IMG/VR virus record: IMGVR_UViG_3300028388_003825
Coordinates: 1 to 20,772 of that record
Strand: one strand, 5' to 3'
DNA from: a virus
DNA length: 20,772 nt
The notes under the pieces were generated by a model. That model did not search any database. It saw nothing but the letters and a program-made list of their open reading frames with translations, and was not told the origin of the DNA. The position numbers were made by a program, and so were the translations under genes. Shown in pieces: positions 402 through 18,567 of this stretch. Within the stretch, counting starts at the first letter, position 1. The number at the start of each line of letters is the position of its first letter.

Positions 402-618
402 CATCAAGCTCATCAAGCGAGACGGCGAGGACGGCATCAGCGTATCGGGCATGAGTCTGGTGCGCCGTGTTGCCGAGACACTGCACAAACACTACCCGGA
501 CCACCTCTGGGCGGTGAACATCGACGAAGAAGGCGGCGTGCTGACCGTGATGAACCAAGACCGTCCAGGAAGACCCCGACCTGAAGTCGGTCATGAGAGC
601 CGGCGGAGAACTGCTTGA
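394..618 (+). CDS. Small virion-associated protein, 5' part of an apparently frameshifted gene
   Basis: A 74-residue ORF starts at ATG 394, inside the end of the preceding gene. Residues 1 to about 52 look like a real protein (MSLVRRVAETLHKHYPDHLW followed by AVNIDEEGG). The tail after residue ~53 is Arg/Pro-rich (QDRPGRPRPEVGHESRRR) and looks like an out-of-frame translation. The +2 frame from 554 to 709 continues with a convincing sequence (VQEDPDLKSVMRAGGELLER and onward). The natural product is therefore probably about 105 residues, made from both frames. I recall a recurrent small podovirus protein next to the portal with this arrangement of helix and AGGE-LLER-like end, but cannot confirm it. 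Function unknown. Confidence 0.6.
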   Translation: MSDIKLIKRDGEDGISVSGMSLVRRVAETLHKHYPDHLWAVNIDEEGGVLTVMNQDRPGRPRPEVGHESRRRTA

Positions 619-709
619 GCGCTACCGGATCCACCGCGGTCGCTATCGCCCGGGCACCATTCAATCATTGCAGAAGGACTTCCGCGGCAACGTGAAGTTC
701 GACACCTGA
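554..709 (+). pseudogene. 3' part of the frameshifted small gene
   Basis: Frame +2 is open from 554, just after a TGA at 551-553, to TGA 707-709. It reads a hydrophilic, protein-like sequence including DPDLKSVMRAGGELLERYR and a C-terminus DFRGNVKFDT. The only ATG is at 593 and would give 39 residues, with no good ribosome binding site in front. The simplest reading is that this is the second half of the gene begun at 394, joined by a +1 frame change somewhere around 551-575. A loss of some bases at the junction is also possible. Whether it is a programmed frameshift, a mutation or a sequencing error cannot be told from sequence alone. Confidence 0.5.
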
Positions 710-720
710 CGGGGGATACC

Positions 721-2937
721 ATGGATCCAGAAGAGAACAAACAGGTCTACTTCGACGGCGAGGACCTCGAGCCGGACGAATTCGAGCACGGTGAGCCGGA
801 TGAGGACACCGACTGGTTGGCCCTCGCGCAGGACGCCTACCGGACCAGCACCGACTACTACAACTCCAGTCTGCGCAAGCAGTTCGAGCGGAACATCTCG
901 ATGTTCAACTCGAAGCATCCCTCTGGATCCAAGTACAACAGCGACGCCTACAAGTACCGCTCGAAGCTCTTCAGACCCAAAACTAGGTCCGCAATTACCC
1001 GAAACGAGGCCCAGGCAGCCTCGTCGTTCTTCGCCACGCAGGACATCGTCAACGTGGAGCCGGAGAACAAGAACGACCCGGTTGAGGTGCTGCAGGCCGA
1101 CATCAACGGCGAGCTTCTCAACTACCGCCTCGAGCATGACATCCCCTGGTTCCTTACCTGCATGGGCGCGTTCCAGGATTCGATGGTCATCGGCGCCTGC
1201 GTGTCCAAGCAGTACTGGGACTACGAGGAGGAGATACCGGAGGAACTCGACGACCCCTTTGCTGACCCCGAGATCACAGAGGAGGGTGGGATGCTCAGCG
1301 GCCCCGAGCCGAAGATCAAGAGCGACAAGCCAGTCGTCGACCTCATACCGATCGAGAATATCCGCTTCGACCCGGCCGCCGACTGGCGCGACCCGATCAA
1401 CACCTCACCCTACTTCATCCACATGATGCCGATGTACCTTGGTGACGTGAAGGACAAGATGACGATCGTGGATACGAAGACGGGGCAACCGGCGTGGTAC
1501 CAGGCATCTGACGACATCCTGATCGGCGCCAGTTCGAAGCTCGATGACGACTCCACCCGCCAGGTTCGCGTCGGCGACCGCAAGGACCCGATCGACGACA
1601 ACGGGCGCACAGACGACTTCCGGATCATCTGGATCCACGAGAACTTCATCCGCAAGGGCGGCTGCGACTACGTCTTCTACACAATCGGCGACCGCCACCT
1701 CCTGACCGACCCGGTCAAGATCGAGGAAGTCTACTTCACCGGCGTCCGCCCCTTCGTCATGGGCCACACCATCATCGAGTCGCACAAGACTCTCCCGAGC
1801 GGCGCCCCGGAGATCTGGGACGGTATCCAGACCGAGATCAACGAGGTCGCCAACCAGCGCATTGACAACGTCAAGCTGGTCCTCAACACCCGCTACTTCG
1901 TCAACCGCACGGCGAACATCGACACCAACAGCCTGACCCATTCGGTCCCCGGCGGCGTGGTGGTGATGGACGACGTGAACGCCGACATCCGGCCCGACCG
2001 CCCCGGCGACGTCACCGGCTCCAGCTATCAGGAGCAGGACCGACTCAACATCGACTTCGACGAGATCGCCGGCGCCTTCTCGCCCGGTTCGGTGCAGTCC
2101 AACCGCCAACTCAACGAGACCGTCGGCGGCATGGAAATGCTCAACGCAGACTCGAACACGCTGACCGAGTACCGGCTGCGCATCTTCGCTGAGACCTGGG
2201 TGCAGCCCGTGCTCAAGCAGCTTCTCCTACTCGAGCAGGCCTACGAGACCGACAAGAAGATCCTCCAGATCGCCGGCCAGAAGGCGCAGGCTTTCGAGCG
2301 GCTCCAGATTGCGAGCATTGAGGACTGGATGCTCGAGGCCCCGGTCAAGCCCAGGGTCAACGTCGGTTTCGGCAACAGCCAACCGCACCAGAGGATTCAG
2401 AAGATCCAGTCCGGATTCACCATCCTCGCCCAGATCCAGCAGATCCCCGGCGTCAACATCGAAGAGGTACGCCGGGAGATCTTCGGTGCCCTCGGCTACA
2501 AGGACGGCGACCGCTTCTTCCTCCCCGAGGAGGAGCAGCAGGATCCGGAGAAGATGCAGATGCAGCAGATGATCCAAGACCTGCAGCAGAAGCTGGCCAC
2601 CAAGGAGCTGGAGGCGCAGGCCAAGATCCAGGTCGCACAGATCAACGCTCAGGCGTCGGTCGAGACCGCACAGATCAAGACCAACGCGCAGCAGGAGATC
2701 GAGGGCTTCAAGACCCGGATCAAGCAGACCGACCAGAAGCTGGCCGCGGCCAAGCTGCGGGCCAACAACGACACCGAGATCGCCAAGCTGATGATGCAGC
2801 GCGAGGCGCTGATCGCCAACCTCCGCCAGAAAGAAGCGGACACGGCGCGCAACAACGCCAACAGCATGGCCGAGACCATCGCCCGGGGGCAATACGGGGC
2901 CGTCCCGGGCGTAGACGACGAACCCGGCAAAGGATAA
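721..2937 (+). CDS. Portal protein (head-tail connector)
   Basis: A 738-residue protein forming the ring at the unique head vertex through which DNA is packaged and ejected. The N-terminus is very acidic (residues 1-40). The middle has the typical portal stretch: ENFIRKGG, then VRPFVMGHTIIESHKTLPSG (around 341-360), then EINEVANQRIDNVK, and an AFSPGSVQSN segment before a long helix ending in the LLLEQ region. Residues about 610-715 are a Gln/Lys/Ala-rich coiled coil, common at the C-terminus of podoviral portals. Size is in the range of N4-like and related podoviral portals (700-770). The start ATG 721 has only a G-run (GGGGGA) in front. Position between terminase and scaffold supports the call. 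Confidence 0.92.
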   Translation: MDPEENKQVYFDGEDLEPDEFEHGEPDEDTDWLALAQDAYRTSTDYYNSSLRKQFERNISMFNSKHPSGSKYNSDAYKYRSKLFRPKTRSAITRNEAQAASSFFATQDIVNVEPENKNDPVEVLQADINGELLNYRLEHDIPWFLTCMGAFQDSMVIGACVSKQYWDYEEEIPEELDDPFADPEITEEGGMLSGPEPKIKSDKPVVDLIPIENIRFDPAADWRDPINTSPYFIHMMPMYLGDVKDKMTIVDTKTGQPAWYQASDDILIGASSKLDDDSTRQVRVGDRKDPIDDNGRTDDFRIIWIHENFIRKGGCDYVFYTIGDRHLLTDPVKIEEVYFTGVRPFVMGHTIIESHKTLPSGAPEIWDGIQTEINEVANQRIDNVKLVLNTRYFVNRTANIDTNSLTHSVPGGVVVMDDVNADIRPDRPGDVTGSSYQEQDRLNIDFDEIAGAFSPGSVQSNRQLNETVGGMEMLNADSNTLTEYRLRIFAETWVQPVLKQLLLLEQAYETDKKILQIAGQKAQAFERLQIASIEDWMLEAPVKPRVNVGFGNSQPHQRIQKIQSGFTILAQIQQIPGVNIEEVRREIFGALGYKDGDRFFLPEEEQQDPEKMQMQQMIQDLQQKLATKELEAQAKIQVAQINAQASVETAQIKTNAQQEIEGFKTRIKQTDQKLAAAKLRANNDTEIAKLMMQREALIANLRQKEADTARNNANSMAETIARGQYGAVPGVDDEPGKG

Positions 2938-7893: not shown

Positions 7894-8589
7894 ATGGCCA
7901 AGCGCACCTTTCTTGAACTCGCACAGCGGGTGTACCAGGAGTGTGGTGCGCCTGGTTCAGCGCCCCCGAACGTCACCGGCCAAATCGGTCTGCGGCAGAA
8001 GATTGTCGAATGGACGGCGGACGCCATCTACGAGATCGAGGCCCTCTGGGGAGACTGGAAGTTTCTACAAGACGAACTCAACCAGGCCATAGTCCAGGGC
8101 GGTCGGACCTACAACTACGTTTCCGACTGGGACGGGCCCCACGACGACTCGTTCTTCATCCAGGGGACAGGGAGCGACTTCTGGCCACTCCACCACATGG
8201 ACTACGAGCACTGGTACCGCACGTATCGGGGTCTGGACCCCTCTGACGCGGACAACCAGGATCGTCCTACCCATGTGGTCTGGGGGAACGATGAGATCAT
8301 CATCCACCCCACCCCTGACGACTCCTACACCCTGATCGGTCGCTACAACACAACACCCACTCGGGTCGTAGCGAACACCGACACCTCTCAGATCCCCGAG
8401 CAATTCGAAGCGGCCATCATCGCCCTCGCGAAAATGAAGTTCGCGGAGCACGAGGGGGCGGGCATCATGCTGGCCAACGCACAGTCCGAGTACAACCTAT
8501 GGCTGGCCGCGCTCGAGGCCAACCAGCGCCCGAACCAAGGGCACCGACGCAGCGATCGCAGAGAGCAACTGGTGGTGCGCCCCGTATGA
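7894..8589 (+). CDS. Head-tail adaptor (connector) protein
   Basis: 231 residues; GGGGGAG precedes ATG 7894, three bases after the previous stop. The N-terminal half reads TFLELAQRVYQECG, VTGQIGLRQKIVEWTADAIY and WGDWKFLQDEL, the pattern of a recurrent phage adaptor family that docks under the portal ring. A beta-rich middle follows (DYEHWYRTYRGL, THVVWGNDEIIIHPTP), then a C-terminal helix IPEQFEAAIIALAKMKFAEHEG. The adaptor extends the portal and receives the tail nozzle coded next. The stop overlaps the next start as ATGA at 8586-8589. I am confident of the adaptor role but give no symbol. Confidence 0.82.
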   Translation: MAKRTFLELAQRVYQECGAPGSAPPNVTGQIGLRQKIVEWTADAIYEIEALWGDWKFLQDELNQAIVQGGRTYNYVSDWDGPHDDSFFIQGTGSDFWPLHHMDYEHWYRTYRGLDPSDADNQDRPTHVVWGNDEIIIHPTPDDSYTLIGRYNTTPTRVVANTDTSQIPEQFEAAIIALAKMKFAEHEGAGIMLANAQSEYNLWLAALEANQRPNQGHRRSDRREQLVVRPV

Positions 8590-11582
8590 GACGATCGACC
8601 CTTAAACGTGGCCCGGTAGAGAAGTTCAGCCGGCGCCCGGTCGGGCGAGTGGAGAAGGTTCAGACCTTCGCCACCGAGCTGACTGGTGGCGTGAATGAAA
8701 TCTCGGGGCTGCTCGACTTCCCGCAGACCGACGCCCTCTTCGCGCTCAACTACGCACCGGCCGAAGGCGGCGGCTACGAGCTTGTGGGGCAGCTGGAGCG
8801 CTTCGACGGCACGTCCCCGCCTCCGAGGGAGGCCAACTACTACGGCGTCCCTTATACGAAGCTGAACCGCTCCAACGCCTTCTACCTTTACGCGCCCTGC
8901 AATGGCGTCAGCTCGAGCGCGGAGGCCAACTACATTCCGATCAACTGCATGAGCTTCAAGGCCGGCAGCGAGAAGATCATCCCCGGCAGCCAGTTGTCGC
9001 TTGAGGTCGATACGTACGACCCGATCGGCGGAGTCACGGCAAAGAGCACGATTACGATCGCCTGCCGCGGGATCTATGTTGAGTCCGGTACCTGGGAGGG
9101 TGGAGACGCACAGGGTACGATTTTCTTTGACGACCTCACTGCATCCCTCGACGCCTATCGGGCACTCGACGGCTATAGGATCAGCGGGGTAGGTGATACC
9201 TTGGGTGAGGCACAACTCGCATACAGCTCCACGGCCGCTGGCATTTACGTCCCCACGGTCACGCTACAGAACGGCGCCACGGCGGAAGAGATCGCGCTCA
9301 ACCGCGCGCAGACCAGCAACGTCTATCGAATACCCTTCCGCCTGGGTACGTCAAACCAAAACCCTTACGGCTCCGGCGGCGCCAGCTTCCCTGAATGGTT
9401 TCGTCCGCCATGTATGATCAAGAGCGACGTCGGGCATTATTTCTGGCTGACCGACGTAGAGGTCACCAGCGGTGACCCGACCACTGACGATGCGGCTGGC
9501 TATCTCTATGGGATACCCTTCGTTGCCCCATACACCGACCTCACGCTGGCCAGCTACTTCACCGGTGGCGGCGGCGTAGATGTTGGCGGGTGCCTGTCTG
9601 GTGGTGTTGCCGTCATCGACGGCCCACTTGAGTCCACTGGCGACTTCACCTCACTCGAAGACGCGGACAACGATGCGGTCTGGAAGGCGAAGGGTGTGCT
9701 GCCGGCGTTCAGTTGGAACGGTACAGAATTCACAGCCGGAGAAGATATAGATGACGGCGCGGGCGTTGTTATCGCCGAGGTGCCGAGCGCACCGTTGAGT
9801 GACGACTCTGGTGAAGGTGGGCTTCGCACTGAGTTCCTCGACAAAGTCTACCGCAACTACATGGGCTACCAAACCAGGTTGGGTATTCAACCGGTCCCCG
9901 GAAAAGGCCCGGTCAGGGGGATCTTCGAGTACGACGGCGACATCTTTGCCATCCGGCAAAAGTTCACCGGCACCAACCTCGGGTTCTACAAAGCGAACGG
10001 CAGCTTGTGGTCTGGAATCACAGCGACCCCGGCACCGAGCGATCAGTGGGAAGAGGTAGAGGTCTACAACACACTGAAGTTCTACGCGGGCGTCGATGAT
10101 TTTGAAATCGGTGATACGGTCACTGGGTTGACTAGCGGTGCAAGCGCAACCGTCATATATGTCGGGGCGACCGGCGGCGCTACCGGAACAGGTAGTCTGT
10201 CGGGCGCGTTGACTTTAGGTACCATCACAGGTGGACCTTTTCAAGACACCGAAGCGTTGCAGGTATCGGGCGCGACGGTGGCCCTTGCCGATGGAGTGGT
10301 CAGCACTACATTCGACGGCACCAACGAGACGCCGTGTGAGATCATCAAGGCCAACTTCGGCGACGGCGAGAAGGTGTACATCACCACCGGCGGCGATGAC
10401 ATCGCTGTCTACGATGGCACAAAGTTGTCCAAAATATCACTCGGCACCACAGCGCAACTCGGCGGTGGACCGACGCATCTCATCGAGCACAAGAACTACT
10501 TGTTTGTCTCGATAGGCTCTTCGGTATTCCACTCTGCGGTCGGCGACCCGCGAGTATTTACAGCGCTGAACAACACTGTGGAATTTGCACTCGGTGACGA
10601 AGTCACCGGGTTCGGAAAGACAGCCGGCGGCCTACTGGCTATGCTTACGCGGGACAAGACACACGTTTTGTATGGCGCAGAGGTGGCAGACTGGGAAAAG
10701 AAAGAACAGCCTTCTCGCATCGGCGCGATACCGAAGAGCATACAACCGGGCGTCAACCCGATATTCACCGACGTGCAGGGGATAACGACTCTGTCGGCGG
10801 TTCAAGAGTTTGGTGACTTTCGCGCCACCGAACTGTCGAAGATGGTGTCGCGCTCCTTGCAACGGAACATCAACAACATCGTAGCTTCGGTGAAGATCAA
10901 GGATACGCAGCAGTATTGGTTGTTCTTCAGTGACGGTACGGGAATCATCGGCTACTTCGGCGAAGAGAATCCGCGCTTCACCTTCTTCGGCTACACTTCC
11001 GACTACTACGAGACGCCAGACTTGGATCTGACCGAAGTGGTGTTGAACAGCGACTACGAAGACATCATACGCCCGTACGTGGCATTCGCGACAGATTACA
11101 TCGGGGGCATCGAGCGCGTCTTCATGGGCGACCAGCAAGGTTTCGTCTATGAGATGAACGTCGGCACCAGTCTTGATGGTGCGCCTCTCCAGGGTTACCT
11201 GCGGTTGGCCCCTTGGAACATGAAGGCTCCGATGCTCAACAAATCGTTCATCAAGGCGACTGTGTATGTCGAGGCCGGAGAGGGATCTGAGGTCCTTGCG
11301 TCGTACGAACTCGACTACGGCGACAACTCTCTTGAGCGAAACAGAACCAACGCCAACGAACTGAACAACCTTTCGGACGTAGAGCCGTCTGGTGGATACT
11401 GGGGAATCGACGAGTGGGGCCAGTTCAGTTGGGGCGGCCGCGCCGTGTCAGAGATCAACATTTACATCGACGCCCCAAGTAGAAACATCGGGCTGCTCAT
11501 CTCATCGCTGAGCGCCGTGGAACCCAAACACACCATCGAAGGGTGTGTTGTTGAATACATCCTACGAGGACGGAAATCGTGA
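8586..11582 (+). CDS. Tail nozzle / tail tubular B-like protein
   Basis: 998 residues from ATG 8586, overlapping the adaptor stop. An upstream in-frame ATG (8499) lies inside the adaptor gene and adds only Arg/Pro-rich shadow sequence, so it was rejected. The protein is mostly beta and resembles the long nozzle proteins of short-tailed phages: an early GGVNEISGLLDFPQTDALFA segment, repeated strand blocks, GLLAMLTRDKTHVLYGAEV, then DFRATELSKMVSRSLQRNIN before WLFFSDGTGIIGYF. Residues ~506-571 carry a Gly/Thr-rich insert (FEIGDTVTGLTSGASATV) found in many environmental phage virion proteins. The final part (LLISSLSAVEP and on) probably faces outward. It should form the tip of the short tail. 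Confidence 0.8.
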   Translation: MRRSTLKRGPVEKFSRRPVGRVEKVQTFATELTGGVNEISGLLDFPQTDALFALNYAPAEGGGYELVGQLERFDGTSPPPREANYYGVPYTKLNRSNAFYLYAPCNGVSSSAEANYIPINCMSFKAGSEKIIPGSQLSLEVDTYDPIGGVTAKSTITIACRGIYVESGTWEGGDAQGTIFFDDLTASLDAYRALDGYRISGVGDTLGEAQLAYSSTAAGIYVPTVTLQNGATAEEIALNRAQTSNVYRIPFRLGTSNQNPYGSGGASFPEWFRPPCMIKSDVGHYFWLTDVEVTSGDPTTDDAAGYLYGIPFVAPYTDLTLASYFTGGGGVDVGGCLSGGVAVIDGPLESTGDFTSLEDADNDAVWKAKGVLPAFSWNGTEFTAGEDIDDGAGVVIAEVPSAPLSDDSGEGGLRTEFLDKVYRNYMGYQTRLGIQPVPGKGPVRGIFEYDGDIFAIRQKFTGTNLGFYKANGSLWSGITATPAPSDQWEEVEVYNTLKFYAGVDDFEIGDTVTGLTSGASATVIYVGATGGATGTGSLSGALTLGTITGGPFQDTEALQVSGATVALADGVVSTTFDGTNETPCEIIKANFGDGEKVYITTGGDDIAVYDGTKLSKISLGTTAQLGGGPTHLIEHKNYLFVSIGSSVFHSAVGDPRVFTALNNTVEFALGDEVTGFGKTAGGLLAMLTRDKTHVLYGAEVADWEKKEQPSRIGAIPKSIQPGVNPIFTDVQGITTLSAVQEFGDFRATELSKMVSRSLQRNINNIVASVKIKDTQQYWLFFSDGTGIIGYFGEENPRFTFFGYTSDYYETPDLDLTEVVLNSDYEDIIRPYVAFATDYIGGIERVFMGDQQGFVYEMNVGTSLDGAPLQGYLRLAPWNMKAPMLNKSFIKATVYVEAGEGSEVLASYELDYGDNSLERNRTNANELNNLSDVEPSGGYWGIDEWGQFSWGGRAVSEINIYIDAPSRNIGLLISSLSAVEPKHTIEGCVVEYILRGRKS

Positions 11583-14500
11583 GCAACGACTACATCGACA
11601 ACACACAGAATCGAGTATTTGACGGGCGTCGCGCTGCGGCATCCGACGTCAACAACGTCCTCGATGCTGTCACCGCGGCCTTTGACCAGCTACCTAGTGC
11701 CCCTGCGGTTTGGGCAGACACTGCGTCGGTAGGTACTGCCGGTGGAACCGCCAACGCAATTATCGTCACCCTTGTCGGCGGCGGCAATGTTCCAATCCCT
11801 TATGTGGATGGGCAGTCTGTCGTCTTTCGCGCGACTGCCGATAACACCGGACCATGCACCTTGGCTCTCAATGACGGCTCTCCGAAGGCACTCGTGTCAC
11901 ACGGCGGCGAGCCGCTTGAACCAAGCGACCTTGTGGTCGATCGGTGGTATGGGGCAAGGTTCAACACCAGCACCGACCAGTGGCAGATCTCCAGCGACCT
12001 GGCACGTAGCGCCCTGGACACCGCTGTTCAGCGCGCGGAGGACGCGCAAGCTGCGGCGGAGACTGCACAGGGACTGAGCGAGACGGCGTTGGCCGACGCG
12101 CAGCAGGTTCTTGTTGATACAGAGGCGGTCTATGATAGCTTCGATGATCGCTACCTCGGCGCCAAGGCAGTAGCCCCGACTCAAGATAACGATGGTGACC
12201 CGCTACTCACGGGCGCAGTCTACTTCAACACCGACACCAACGTCCTTTATGTCTGGGATGGTTCAGATTGGTTGGACTTTGGGGCCCAGTCCCGCATTGT
12301 CAGAACGACTGAAACTGTTTTCTTCACACCAAAGACCACGTTTACCGTACCCGAGTACACCGAAGGGTACGAGCAGGTCTATTTCGAGGGCATCAAGCAA
12401 GTTCGCGGGACGGATTACAACTGCACCAACAGCACAACCATTACGTTCACGTCTGCTGTAGGGCCAGGGGTTTTTGAGTTCGAGGCTTTTGTTGTTCTGG
12501 CCTTCAGTGGCTTTGTGACCGAACTCGCAGGCAAGGTGGAGAAAGCTGGGGATACGATGACCGGTGGTCTCGAGATCTCGGCCGACGTCCCGTTCGTCAA
12601 ATTCGTCGATGAGAATGGACCAGCTGATGAGAAAAAATGGTTGGTTTCTGTTGGCGCCGGTGATTTTGAGATCACCTATAGGAACGACGCAGAAAGTATA
12701 TCCGGGACCGCTTATGAGATCGTACGTGACGGTAGTTCCATCGACTCCCATATCTTCTACACTGGCTTCTCTGAGGCGTTTGAAGTCCAAGAATCCAACG
12801 TCATAGCCCACCCTGATACCTTCCGCGTCGGCGACACGCAGGGCGGGGTGGTCTTCTACGACAGCACAGGCGATGCGTTTAAGATTGGACAGAAGAATGG
12901 CGTGCTGGCAATAAGTGCCGACACGTCTCCTCAAGACGGCGCGCTCGATTCAGACGGCAACTTCACCGATGTCAAATTCATGGAGTTTGTGGCATCTACC
13001 GGTGCGGTTGACTTCATATCAGACGTCTCGATACAGAACACCAGCCCATCTTTGTCGTTTGTAGATACAAGTGGGTTTGGGGGCAGAAATGACTTCCAGA
13101 TAACCGTCGACAACGACGATCTGATAATCACCGGTGGGGAGACAGGCACAGAGAACGTTCACCTTCGGATCAACAGTGATTTCGAGCGCGTTCACCTTTA
13201 TGGTGATGTCGGTATTGGAACAGACGGAGCACAAACAAGAGCCAGACTGCATGTTGAAGACAGCAGCACCGATATAGTTTATGTTGCTTCCACTGGAGCA
13301 AACGCGGACATCAAGTTCAACGATATTGGGAGCACGATCAGCATTTACAACCGAGGGATTGGTTGCGTTGGCGACGACATGCGTATCACCACTGCTGGCT
13401 TGGAAAGACTGCGTGTAACTGACGAAGGGTTGATTGGACTTAGCAAGCCTTCCCCAACCGCACAACTGCACATGCAGAGCAACCAGATTTTGGGGACACT
13501 CGGTGGGACTCCGGGAGATGATGTACCACACATTACTCTTGAGGGTCGCAGCGCCAACGCCGACTACCTCAACTTCAAGCTAGTCCGAGAGTCTGCTGGT
13601 GCAAATTGGCAAACGGCACAGCATCGTATTCAGCGGCAAGTTGACACTGTACAAAAGGGCTTTATTGGGTTTGGGGGCGATACTACTGCAGCCGTGACTT
13701 TTGGTGATGACAATACAGAGTTTATGCGGATCGACATGTATGGCAATGTAGGAATTGGTACTGATGCTCCTACTAGACCACTTGATGTTGAGGGAGTTGT
13801 TCTCGCCACCGGAAACATCATTACCGACAATGACACTAGCTCAGACAGTCGATTTATGATTCAACGCGGCAGCACTGAGGTGGCAGCGTTTGGTGTCCGT
13901 TCGTACAACAACGACGCCTTAGAGATCCGAGGACCAACCGGCGTTGGTACTGGGAGTGAGGTTGCTGCATACTACGATGCTGTTGATGGATGGGACTTCC
14001 GTACTGATAACACCCCGCGGATGCGGATCACCGATAGTGGTCAAGTGTTGATAGGTGCGACTACACCCAAAACCAACATGGCAAACTCCAGCGTCTTGAT
14101 TTCAAATGGTAGTGTGGGTTCTACTGTTAATGCTGCAGCAGATGATCTTGTTATTGAGCGCAACTCTGTAGCAGGCATTACTATCCTTTCGGATAGGGCA
14201 AACAGTTCTCAGGTTTACTTTGGAGACCAAGATTCGCCAGATCAAGGTAGGGTAATTTACAATAACAGCAACAACAGTATGTCGTTCGCTACCTCTGGCA
14301 ACGAGTCGCTCTTTATTAGTTCTGATGGTGAGGTTGGTATTGGTGAAAATACACCTCTCGCTAAGCTCCATGTTAAGACAGGTGACAGCGGGCTGGCGCT
14401 TGTTGGTACTGGTGCTGACGACTTGTTTATTGAAAGTGATAGTAATGCAGGAATGACCATCGCCTCCTCTACTGGCAACTGCTACATCAACTTTGCAGAC

Positions 14501-15823: not shown

Positions 15824-17047
15824 ATGCCCATAGCATCAGATAGTTTGACGAGCAGTTTGTCGCGGCTAAACCGGGCCACGGGGACGCAAGACTACAGCGC
15901 AACGCCCGCTCTCCCGAACCGGACCACCGAACCCACTCAAGCTCAAGACGCTTACCAGGGTTCGCTCGCTGGTGAGGCAGGCAGTTCCCTGCCCAGTACC
16001 CCTAGTCTGCGCGAGAGCGCTTACGCCAATCAACCCACGGCAGCAGCCGGTGGTAGTCAACCTGTGTCGAACGACATGAACAGTCTGCCAGGCAGCACAC
16101 TGGATGCTGCTGGTGGGTTGCTCACCGGGGGCTACAGCCCGAATACATCCATGGCATACACCCGCGAATTGGACGAATCCAAGGACACGATGCGGGGCCA
16201 ACTGGATTCGATACTTAGCAAGGACAGTGACCTCATGAAGCGGGCCTATCAGCAAGGCCTACAAGAGGCCAACGCGCGTGGGCTGCTGAACACTAACCTG
16301 GCCGGATACATGGCTCAGAATGCTGTCTTTGATCAAGCCACCGACATCGCAGAGTTCGATGCTTCGGCCAATCTCAAACAGGGCCTGGATAACCAGTCTG
16401 TGATCAACCAGTTCCGTAGGGACAGAAATACGTTTGATCGCGACTTGGCACGCAGCCAGTTCGACACCGACCTTCAAGAGTACACAGATCAGCGGCAGTG
16501 GGGACGGGAAGAGGTATCGGCAGATCGACAGCTGCAGCGGGACGAGTACGCAGCCGATACAGCTTACGGGCGCGAGCAGTCCGGTGAAGACCAGGCGCTT
16601 CAACGCGACATCGCAATGAGCAATGTCGACTACCTGGAGCAGCTAGGCCTCGACAACAATCTAACCAATAACCGGATCCTTGAAAACTTCCGACAGAGCG
16701 AGAACCGCATACGGGAAAGTATGCAGGATTTTAGAGAGCTGATGACCGAGACCGAGTACAAGGCCTGGCAAGACTCCGGCGCTGAGCGCGCGGTGAATCT
16801 TGGCGGACTCGTCAAGGAGTACTCGACGGCCGCCAAAGAGATTCGACTTAGCGATGACCTGACTGTGGATCAGAAGAAGGCACACCTTGATGCGCTGAAG
16901 GTCTTCTACTCCGATCTGGCTGAAAGTATAGATGTCAGCTTCGACTACCTGGACGGCACAGTCGACGGGATACGAGAATTGGACCTCGCGGTGTTCGGTG
17001 ACGAAGAGGCCGGCTCAGGAGGTGCCGGCCAGACCAGCTTTCAGTGA
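15824..17047 (+). CDS. Putative internal virion/ejection protein
   Basis: 407 residues; AGAGGGG lies 7 bases before ATG 15824. The first ~105 residues are low-complexity (Ser, Pro, Ala, Gly). From about 110 comes a long helix-rich part with AYQQGLQEANARGLLNTNLA (about 142-161), a segment type common in podoviral inner-head proteins. An unusual Arg/Asp/Gln-rich charged stretch follows (about 195-265; for example QRQWGREEVSADRQLQRDEY). The C-terminal third is helical and ends in a Gly-rich tail GSGGAGQTSFQ. Position after the fibre fits proteins stored in the capsid and ejected with DNA. The stop lies 25 bases past the only plausible start of the next gene and close to a strong hairpin; see 17022-18098. 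Confidence 0.7.
   Translation: MPIASDSLTSSLSRLNRATGTQDYSATPALPNRTTEPTQAQDAYQGSLAGEAGSSLPSTPSLRESAYANQPTAAAGGSQPVSNDMNSLPGSTLDAAGGLLTGGYSPNTSMAYTRELDESKDTMRGQLDSILSKDSDLMKRAYQQGLQEANARGLLNTNLAGYMAQNAVFDQATDIAEFDASANLKQGLDNQSVINQFRRDRNTFDRDLARSQFDTDLQEYTDQRQWGREEVSADRQLQRDEYAADTAYGREQSGEDQALQRDIAMSNVDYLEQLGLDNNLTNNRILENFRQSENRIRESMQDFRELMTETEYKAWQDSGAERAVNLGGLVKEYSTAAKEIRLSDDLTVDQKKAHLDALKVFYSDLAESIDVSFDYLDGTVDGIRELDLAVFGDEEAGSGGAGQTSFQ
17008..17030 (+). promoter_or_regulatory. Strong hairpin carrying AGGAGG in its loop
   Basis: GGCCGGC (17008-17014) pairs perfectly with GCCGGCC (17024-17030) around the 9-base loop TCAGGAGGT. The loop contains a full AGGAGG (17017-17022) whose last G is also the first base of a GTG in the next gene's frame. 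A 7-bp GC stem with an exposed ribosome binding sequence 20 bases before a stop in the previous frame suggests translational control or frame change. Confidence 0.5.
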
Positions 17048-18098
17048 TGGTGGTCCCGACTTCACTCTACCGGTAGATCCCACCCCACCCGGCGAAAGGG
17101 AATCCGACGTTACTCTTCTACCAGGGGCTACCCCACAGACTGAAGATGAACTGTTTTCTCAGGACGAGTGGCTTAACCGCTATCAAGTCGAATCGGGTGC
17201 TGGGCCGCTTACGCCGCAAGAGCGAGAGGCAGAGCTTCTTCAGGCTAAGCGAGACGATCCCGTACGGGCGAGAGCCCACCAGGCGGTCCTTGATGCAAGA
17301 CAGGAAGTTAGCCGCTTAGAGAGAAGGATAGCGAACTTTAACACTCCGGAGGAGAGGGAACGACGCAATCAGAGTTGGGCGGAACGTGTGGACCGACTTC
17401 GTGCCAAATATGACGCAGCAGTGGGTTTCGATGCCCGTAACACCGCGTACTGGAATTGGTATAATGCGAGCCGGGCTACACAAGGTACAATCGACAATCA
17501 CTACCGGGATCTATTTGACAGGGTACTTGAAGAGAAAAGGGGCATCTTAGATTCTGCATTTGATGAATACAAGAAAGAAGACCGGCGGGTTGAGAACACC
17601 CATGTGTATAGTGACGAGGCTGGTGTCTTTGCTTCGCTAAAATCTAGTTACGACATCACCGGCGGCGGAAAGGTCATGGGAGAGACCGAGCAAGTTGAGA
17701 TGCTAAGGGACTGGTATGCTAGGGAGGACGCCGCGTGGGCTAAGGTTGATAAGACCGGAAACAGGCAGTGGGATGACGATGGTGGTTGGATAGGTAATAC
17801 CAGGGACAGGGTGTATCGTACTTACGACTATGAGGGACTACCCCCGTTCTTGGCGAACCCGACCGTACCAGAAGGCAGCAAGTTCAACCCGAGCTATGAA
17901 AGGACAGGTTTTTATAGAGGGGACGACATGGACCCCCTAGAGAAATTCAACGATTTCATGAAAAAGTACCGGAAGCAGCCAGACTACGACCAGTACACTG
18001 GTGTGTACCACAAAGACTACTACCCCTTGGAGTGGATACAGATGGCGAGACACATCATAGCTGAAGAAGAAAAGGATCCAGATTACTCGTTGAGTTGA
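17022..18098 (+). CDS. Putative internal virion protein; start uncertain
   Basis: 358 residues if read from GTG 17022. An in-frame ATG at 16932 would give 388 residues, but its first 30 look like shadow sequence of the upstream gene. Neither start has a well-spaced ribosome binding site. The N-terminus is acidic and Pro-rich (DFTLPVDPTPPGE). Residues ~65-150 are a charged helix (RAHQAVLDARQEVSRLERRI), and the rest mixes helix with aromatic segments (NTAYWNWYNASRA, a C-terminal YHKDYYPLEWIQMARH). I recognise no family. Sampled GC drops to about 38% (17521-17580) against ~60% nearby. It may be the second half of a fusion with the upstream protein through a +1 frame change near 17039-17047. Confidence 0.68.
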   Translation: MPARPAFSDGGPDFTLPVDPTPPGERESDVTLLPGATPQTEDELFSQDEWLNRYQVESGAGPLTPQEREAELLQAKRDDPVRARAHQAVLDARQEVSRLERRIANFNTPEERERRNQSWAERVDRLRAKYDAAVGFDARNTAYWNWYNASRATQGTIDNHYRDLFDRVLEEKRGILDSAFDEYKKEDRRVENTHVYSDEAGVFASLKSSYDITGGGKVMGETEQVEMLRDWYAREDAAWAKVDKTGNRQWDDDGGWIGNTRDRVYRTYDYEGLPPFLANPTVPEGSKFNPSYERTGFYRGDDMDPLEKFNDFMKKYRKQPDYDQYTGVYHKDYYPLEWIQMARHIIAEEEKDPDYSLS

Positions 18099-18111: not shown

Positions 18112-18567
18112 ATGGCGCTTCGGTTAAGAAAAGCCACAACACAAGACATCGACTCGATCGGCGAGCTACTCCAGTTCGCGCGGGACGAGTCGCCCCTCTA
18201 CTTTCGAACCGGGTACTCGGAGCTTCGCGTCAAGTCGACGCTCTACAACCTGATGCAGAACCCGACCATGCTGCACATCGTCAGCGTGGACGAGGATGAC
18301 AAGGTGCAGGGATACCTGATGGGCGACATACAGCCCGACTGGTTCGGCCTCGGCTCGGTGGCGGTGACGCACATCGTCTACGCCCGATCGGGCAAGGGCG
18401 GACTCGGACTCATTAAGTATTTCGTCGACTGGGCGAAGGGCTGGAAGAAGGTCAAGAAGATTCACATACCGATCAGCTTCGGCGGCGAGAGAGCCGAGCG
18501 GACTGGTCAATTACTTGAACGGCTGGGCTTCGAGAATGTTGGCAGCCAATACATGGAGATACTCTGA
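18112..18567 (+). CDS. GNAT-family N-acetyltransferase
   Basis: 151 residues, GGGAGGG before ATG 18112. The GNAT order is clear: an N-terminal strand and helix (LRLRKATTQDIDSIGELLQF), a central strand pair (MLHIVSVDEDDKVQGYLMGD), strand 4 (VAVTHIVYARS), then the acetyl-CoA pyrophosphate loop as SGKGGLG (about residues 91-97), matching the family's R/Q-x-x-G-x-G/A pattern only loosely. The C-terminal RTGQLLERLGFENVGSQYME is the usual GNAT end. Such enzymes transfer acetyl from acetyl-CoA to an amine. Single GNAT genes recur among podoviral structural genes; the target is unknown. It shares one base with the next gene's start. Confidence 0.85.
   Translation: MALRLRKATTQDIDSIGELLQFARDESPLYFRTGYSELRVKSTLYNLMQNPTMLHIVSVDEDDKVQGYLMGDIQPDWFGLGSVAVTHIVYARSGKGGLGLIKYFVDWAKGWKKVKKIHIPISFGGERAERTGQLLERLGFENVGSQYMEIL

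Follow-up and report, generated by a model that had tools for sequence, protein, structure and literature searches.

Two overlapping reading frames in the virion region of a viral contig, ORF1 and ORF2, are best taken as two separate genes, with ORF2 probably starting at GTG 17022, preceded by AGAGG 12 nt upstream, and probably coupled to the translation of ORF1 (rough probability 0.55). The contig is an IMG/VR virus record of 20,772 bases, analysed as a whole and called the window here. Its genes are those for portal, lysozyme, major capsid, stabilization-like protein, and tail fibre, then ORF1, ORF2, the acetyltransferase, and some small genes further downstream. The features of the junction are the following.

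15824-17047, plus strand: ORF1, a helical protein of 407 aa, from a podovirus-like virion-region family that is uncharacterised; it ends with TGA at 17045-17047 and has the Shine-Dalgarno (SD) sequence AGAGGGG upstream.
17022-18098, plus strand: ORF2, 358 aa from GTG 17022, in frame +1 of ORF1, without detectable homolog; best-scoring frame over most of 17046-18095.
17005-17009, plus strand: AGAGG, a possible weak SD 12 nt from GTG 17022, its last GG lying within the 5' arm of the hairpin.
17008-17030, plus strand: GC hairpin, arms GGCCGGC (17008-17014) and GCCGGCC (17024-17030), loop TCAGGAGGT (17015-17023).
17017-17022, plus strand: AGGAGG, inside the ORF1 codons TCA GGA GGT, with no start codon 5-9 nt downstream.
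17022-17024, plus strand: GTG, where ORF2 probably starts; two of its bases belong to the loop and one to the 3' arm.
17039-17042, plus strand: TTT-C, where the +1 slip was proposed; the next codons in frame are CAG and TGA.
17047-17049, plus strand: ATG of a TGATG stop/start overlap; it lies in the third frame, opens only 9 codons, and has no SD.
18112-18567, plus strand: GNAT-like acetyltransferase (phrog_1249), found directly 3' of the ORF1 homolog in 19 relatives.

A sequence-only reading of this DNA had described a perfect 7-bp stem with AGGAGG in its loop just before the end of the 407-residue ORF, and a next ORF in the +1 frame; all of this is as described. The frame of ORF2 is open from 16932 to 18098, and its in-frame starts near the junction are ATG 16932, GTG 16998, and GTG 17022, the next usable candidate being CTG 17151. 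With a codon model trained on the contig's other genes, the frame of ORF1 (frame 2) scored +16 bits over 16934-17045. The frame of ORF2 (frame 0) was negative upstream of 17022 and was the better frame downstream, the scores passing from one to the other at about 17020-17080. Because of this switch near 17022, the reading of ORF2 should begin at about 17022-17045, either at GTG 17022 or through a change of frame. ATG 16932 was rejected as a start because frame 0 does not look coding there, in agreement with the earlier view that it reads shadow sequence. GTG 17022 is the only usable start. The statement that ORF2 lacks a properly spaced start was right in that AGGAGG overlaps GTG 17022, but it missed AGAGG at 17005-17009. 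The SD energy of GTG 17022 with this element (-5.8 kcal/mol) is equalled or exceeded by 14 of the 16 other starts; it is better than that of about 78-86% of internal start-like triplets, 14-22% being as good. The coding score of ORF2 is weak (0.09 bits per codon, against 0.19-0.56 in the other genes).

The GC3 of ORF2 (0.55 over 17046-18098) is below that of its neighbours and resembles the value of the tail fibre gene (0.50); this could be a sign of recent acquisition. Elsewhere in the window, the listed ATG 8499 of the stabilization-like gene (8499-11582) is probably not its start, as a start at ATG 8586 overlaps the gene before it by 4 nt (ATGA).

Initiation of ORF2 at GTG 17022 would be helped by AGAGG. 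The hairpin partly covers both AGAGG and the GTG, so that its opening by ribosomes that are finishing ORF1 would couple ORF2 to ORF1. It is plausible that the hairpin and the internal purine-rich sequence affect (re)initiation of ORF2, as the sequence-only reading had also envisaged. Translationally coupled overlapping genes of phages and bacteria similarly have the downstream start inside the upstream gene, and a start and weak SD within a structure that translating ribosomes would open. They differ in that their overlaps are usually 4, 1, or 8 nt, as against 26 nt here (from GTG 17022 to the stop at 17047), in that the start here is a GTG with AGAGG 12 nt away, and in that coupling is in this case a prediction. 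The weakness and distance of the SD count against separate genes, as does the overlap of 26 nt, an unusual length in a contig whose other overlaps are of 4 nt. Reinitiation has been reported to be efficient only at very short overlaps or distances (PMC10666635).

The family of ORF1 indicates what belongs to this gene. ORF1 matches a 519-aa gene of Pseudoalteromonas phage vB_Pun_Y3 and genes in StenR_269, ctsTn925, and phage 1.232.O. By portal, the nearest named phages are Vibrio phages, e.g. 431E45.1 and 1.232.O (39%), and Escherichia phages PTXU04 and Bas95 (33-34%). Scans with the portal, ORF1, the stabilization protein, and a core HMM gathered 44 distinct homologous ORFs including ORF1 (43 others), and no ORF1 relatives were found in the genome contigs scanned. 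Except for fragments at record ends, the homologs are single intact ORFs of 155-981 aa. ORF1 shares with them a conserved helical core with an RGL-(N/S)-S motif and the position before the acetyltransferase. It matches the core HMM with an E-value of 7.8e-37, being itself one of the 16 rows from which the profile was built; independent pairwise tblastn/BLASTP matches and synteny also place it in this RGL-core family.

The 299-aa homolog of StenR_269 aligns over its whole length, with its end falling at ORF1 residue 380. The predicted model of ORF1 is helical over residues 118-374 (pLDDT 49, with a low-confidence end), and the helical part ends near residue 375, to be followed by a Gly/Ala-rich tail. 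Tails in the family are variable, often Gly- or Pro-rich, and commonly have no domain after them (Y3, L276, L317, L318). The local order in vB_Pun_Y3 (tail fibre, 519-aa gene, acetyltransferase) is that of the window. More broadly, the contig resembles the P22-like/podovirus virion module of vB_Pun_Y3, Vibrio phage 1.232.O, and Stenotrophomonas phage StenR_269 in having portal, major capsid, stabilization protein, and ORF1 homolog in the same order, with the acetyltransferase in Y3. It differs from them by the separate ORF of 358 aa that it alone has between the ORF1 homolog and the acetyltransferase. The acetyltransferase starts -70 to +17 nt from the end of the homolog in all 19 relatives where it was located, but 1064 nt away in the window, and this gap holds ORF2.

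No relatives of ORF2 were found in DNA- and protein-level phage searches or in single-protein scans of viral and genome contigs, nor among the matches listed in a scan for its motif YWNWYN; a single-sequence structure model was unusable (pLDDT 40). From this comparison, ORF1 alone is a complete member of its family. ORF2, so far seen in no other lineage, is something extra, be it a gene of its own or an extension of the ORF1 C-terminus.

Unrelated C-terminal extensions occur in several homologs. Hint domains lie in frame after Pro/Gly linkers in two relatives, L271 and G016. The domain of L271 (IMGVR_UViG_3300020234_000027, 11863-13593) is a Vint-type Hint (PF14623) after a Gly- or Pro-rich linker, with an E-value of 1.6e-8, above the Pfam cut-off. 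The same C-terminal arrangement in L094 (IMGVR_UViG_3300026544_000012, 463-2046, minus strand) has an E-value of 2.6e-4, below this cut-off. Hint is a domain of the self-processing type, appended here to a phage virion-region protein. In two homologs of 965 and 981 aa (L246, 18329-21226; L258, 12772-15717), the conserved core is followed by numerous QALDRAQQ-like repeats, each about 35 residues long, and one homolog of 615 aa (L306, 13607-15454) has a DUF4214 near its C-terminus (E 6.2e-9). The acetyltransferase of one relative matches DUF2824 (PF11039), which we take to be P22 gp14-like.

Since relatives extend the ORF1-family protein in frame at its C-terminus, an extension would be as natural here as a new gene. 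The main rival of separate genes is for this reason a single gene of about 757 residues, ORF1 with an in-frame C-terminal extension, broken by an indel of one base within the linker, which could be an assembly or read error or else a real mutation of the sampled virus. We consider it a tentative alternative, with perhaps one chance in four. It would account for the lack of a good ORF2 start, and it fits with the single gene found in this slot in every relative (up to 981 aa), with the in-frame domains appended in L271 and G016, and with the linker-like sequence on both sides of the junction. Against it, the other genes in the 20.8 kb are all unbroken, the junction has no long homopolymer, and it is normal in this family to have a Gly-rich tail and nothing more. 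Furthermore, although relatives do code one protein here, as had been suggested for verification, none contains the sequence of ORF2 in any arrangement.

A doubtful variant of coupling is that ribosomes terminating at TGA 17047 back up or are held on AGGAGG and restart at GTG 17022 with no fresh 30S subunit being recruited. An SD-like sequence close to a gene end may indeed keep the 30S subunit for coupled restart (PMC5009743). However, AGGAGG overlaps GTG 17022 and so cannot position it, the end of the stop lies 25 nt downstream of this start, and the ATG of the classical TGATG arrangement belongs to the wrong frame. Overlaps of more than 8 nt are also rare among coupled pairs (PMC10666635).

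The hairpin and AGGAGG look like by-products, explained mostly by which codons the Gly/Ala tail (EAGSGGAG) uses; stems of this length and AGGAGG are about as frequent in the window as chance would make them. The 23-nt hairpin has a folding energy of -14.9 kcal/mol (z -2.85), but in its 71-nt context z is -1.49, with 18 of 200 shuffles equally stable; its statistical significance is weak. The window contains 13 perfect 7-bp stems with loops of 3-12 nt (14.8 expected), 2 all-GC perfect 7-bp stems (0.46 expected), and 17 copies of AGGAGG on the plus strand (9.4 expected), these mostly within genes. Both arms of the hairpin contain GCC-GGC, an Ala-Gly codon pair, and GCCGGC is its own reverse complement, so that two direct copies in an Ala/Gly-rich tail make a stem. 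When the peptide DEEAGSGGAGQTSFQ was recoded with the codon usage of the contig, a stem this long appeared in 2.4% of the trials; codon usage alone makes such a stem uncommon but possible. The hairpin was absent from every other homologous gene end checked, including that of L085, where Gly codons likewise contain an AGGAGG, 34 nt from the gene end. An intrinsic terminator and a known structured RNA were both rejected, the hairpin not being called terminator-like and having no match in Rfam.

The sequence-only reading had proposed that the hairpin and AGGAGG drive a slip at TTT-C, giving a fused product of about 760 residues. A one-base slip there does join the frames as TSF-SDGG, into a 757-codon read that contains no stop at the join, and TTT to TTC re-pairs fully with tRNA-Phe. 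UUU-C is in principle a known +1 shift codon, as in influenza PA-X. We nevertheless find such a fusion by programmed slippage, as a minor virion protein, unlikely, and even less probable than reinitiation. Phages use frameshifting in tail genes, and SD-like stimulators act at 3 nt from the slip site for +1 and at 9-14 nt for -1 shifts (PMC5009743); AGGAGG (17017-17022) is 16 nt from TTT 17039. The A-site codon CAG, neither rare nor a stop, is the commonest Gln codon (168 of 240, 70%). TTT-C occurs in frame 11 times in the genes of the window, once more as TTT-CAG. The upstream hairpin is not conserved, the two-frame arrangement is found in no homolog, and relatives indicate that ORF1 is complete by itself. 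The +1 frameshift of prfB (release factor 2) likewise has an internal SD-like sequence upstream of a shift near UGA, but there the spacing is 3 nt; here UUU-C is followed by a sense CAG, with UGA one codon later, and nothing is conserved. A GGG-A/ATA at 16967 was rejected as an alternative +1 site, as it would swap the Gly tail for sequence from a frame that scores non-coding. It is likewise improbable that a low-level UUU-C shift, with the upstream GC hairpin and the internal SD, adds a 350-residue extension to a minority of the virion protein copies, so that the particle would contain both a short and a long form.

In a rough weighing of event frequencies, which is our own judgement, we rank separate initiation first, an indel second, and a frameshift last. 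Should the fusion be shown, a virion-region protein other than the tail-assembly chaperones would offer a rare case of +1 frameshifting. As it stands, the locus is of little importance, being the overlap of a conserved virion-region gene with a lineage-specific ORF. More useful is the family to which ORF1 belongs. Widespread and unannotated, its proteins combine a small conserved core with tails that vary greatly, and they are encoded before the acetyltransferase of podovirus-like phages.
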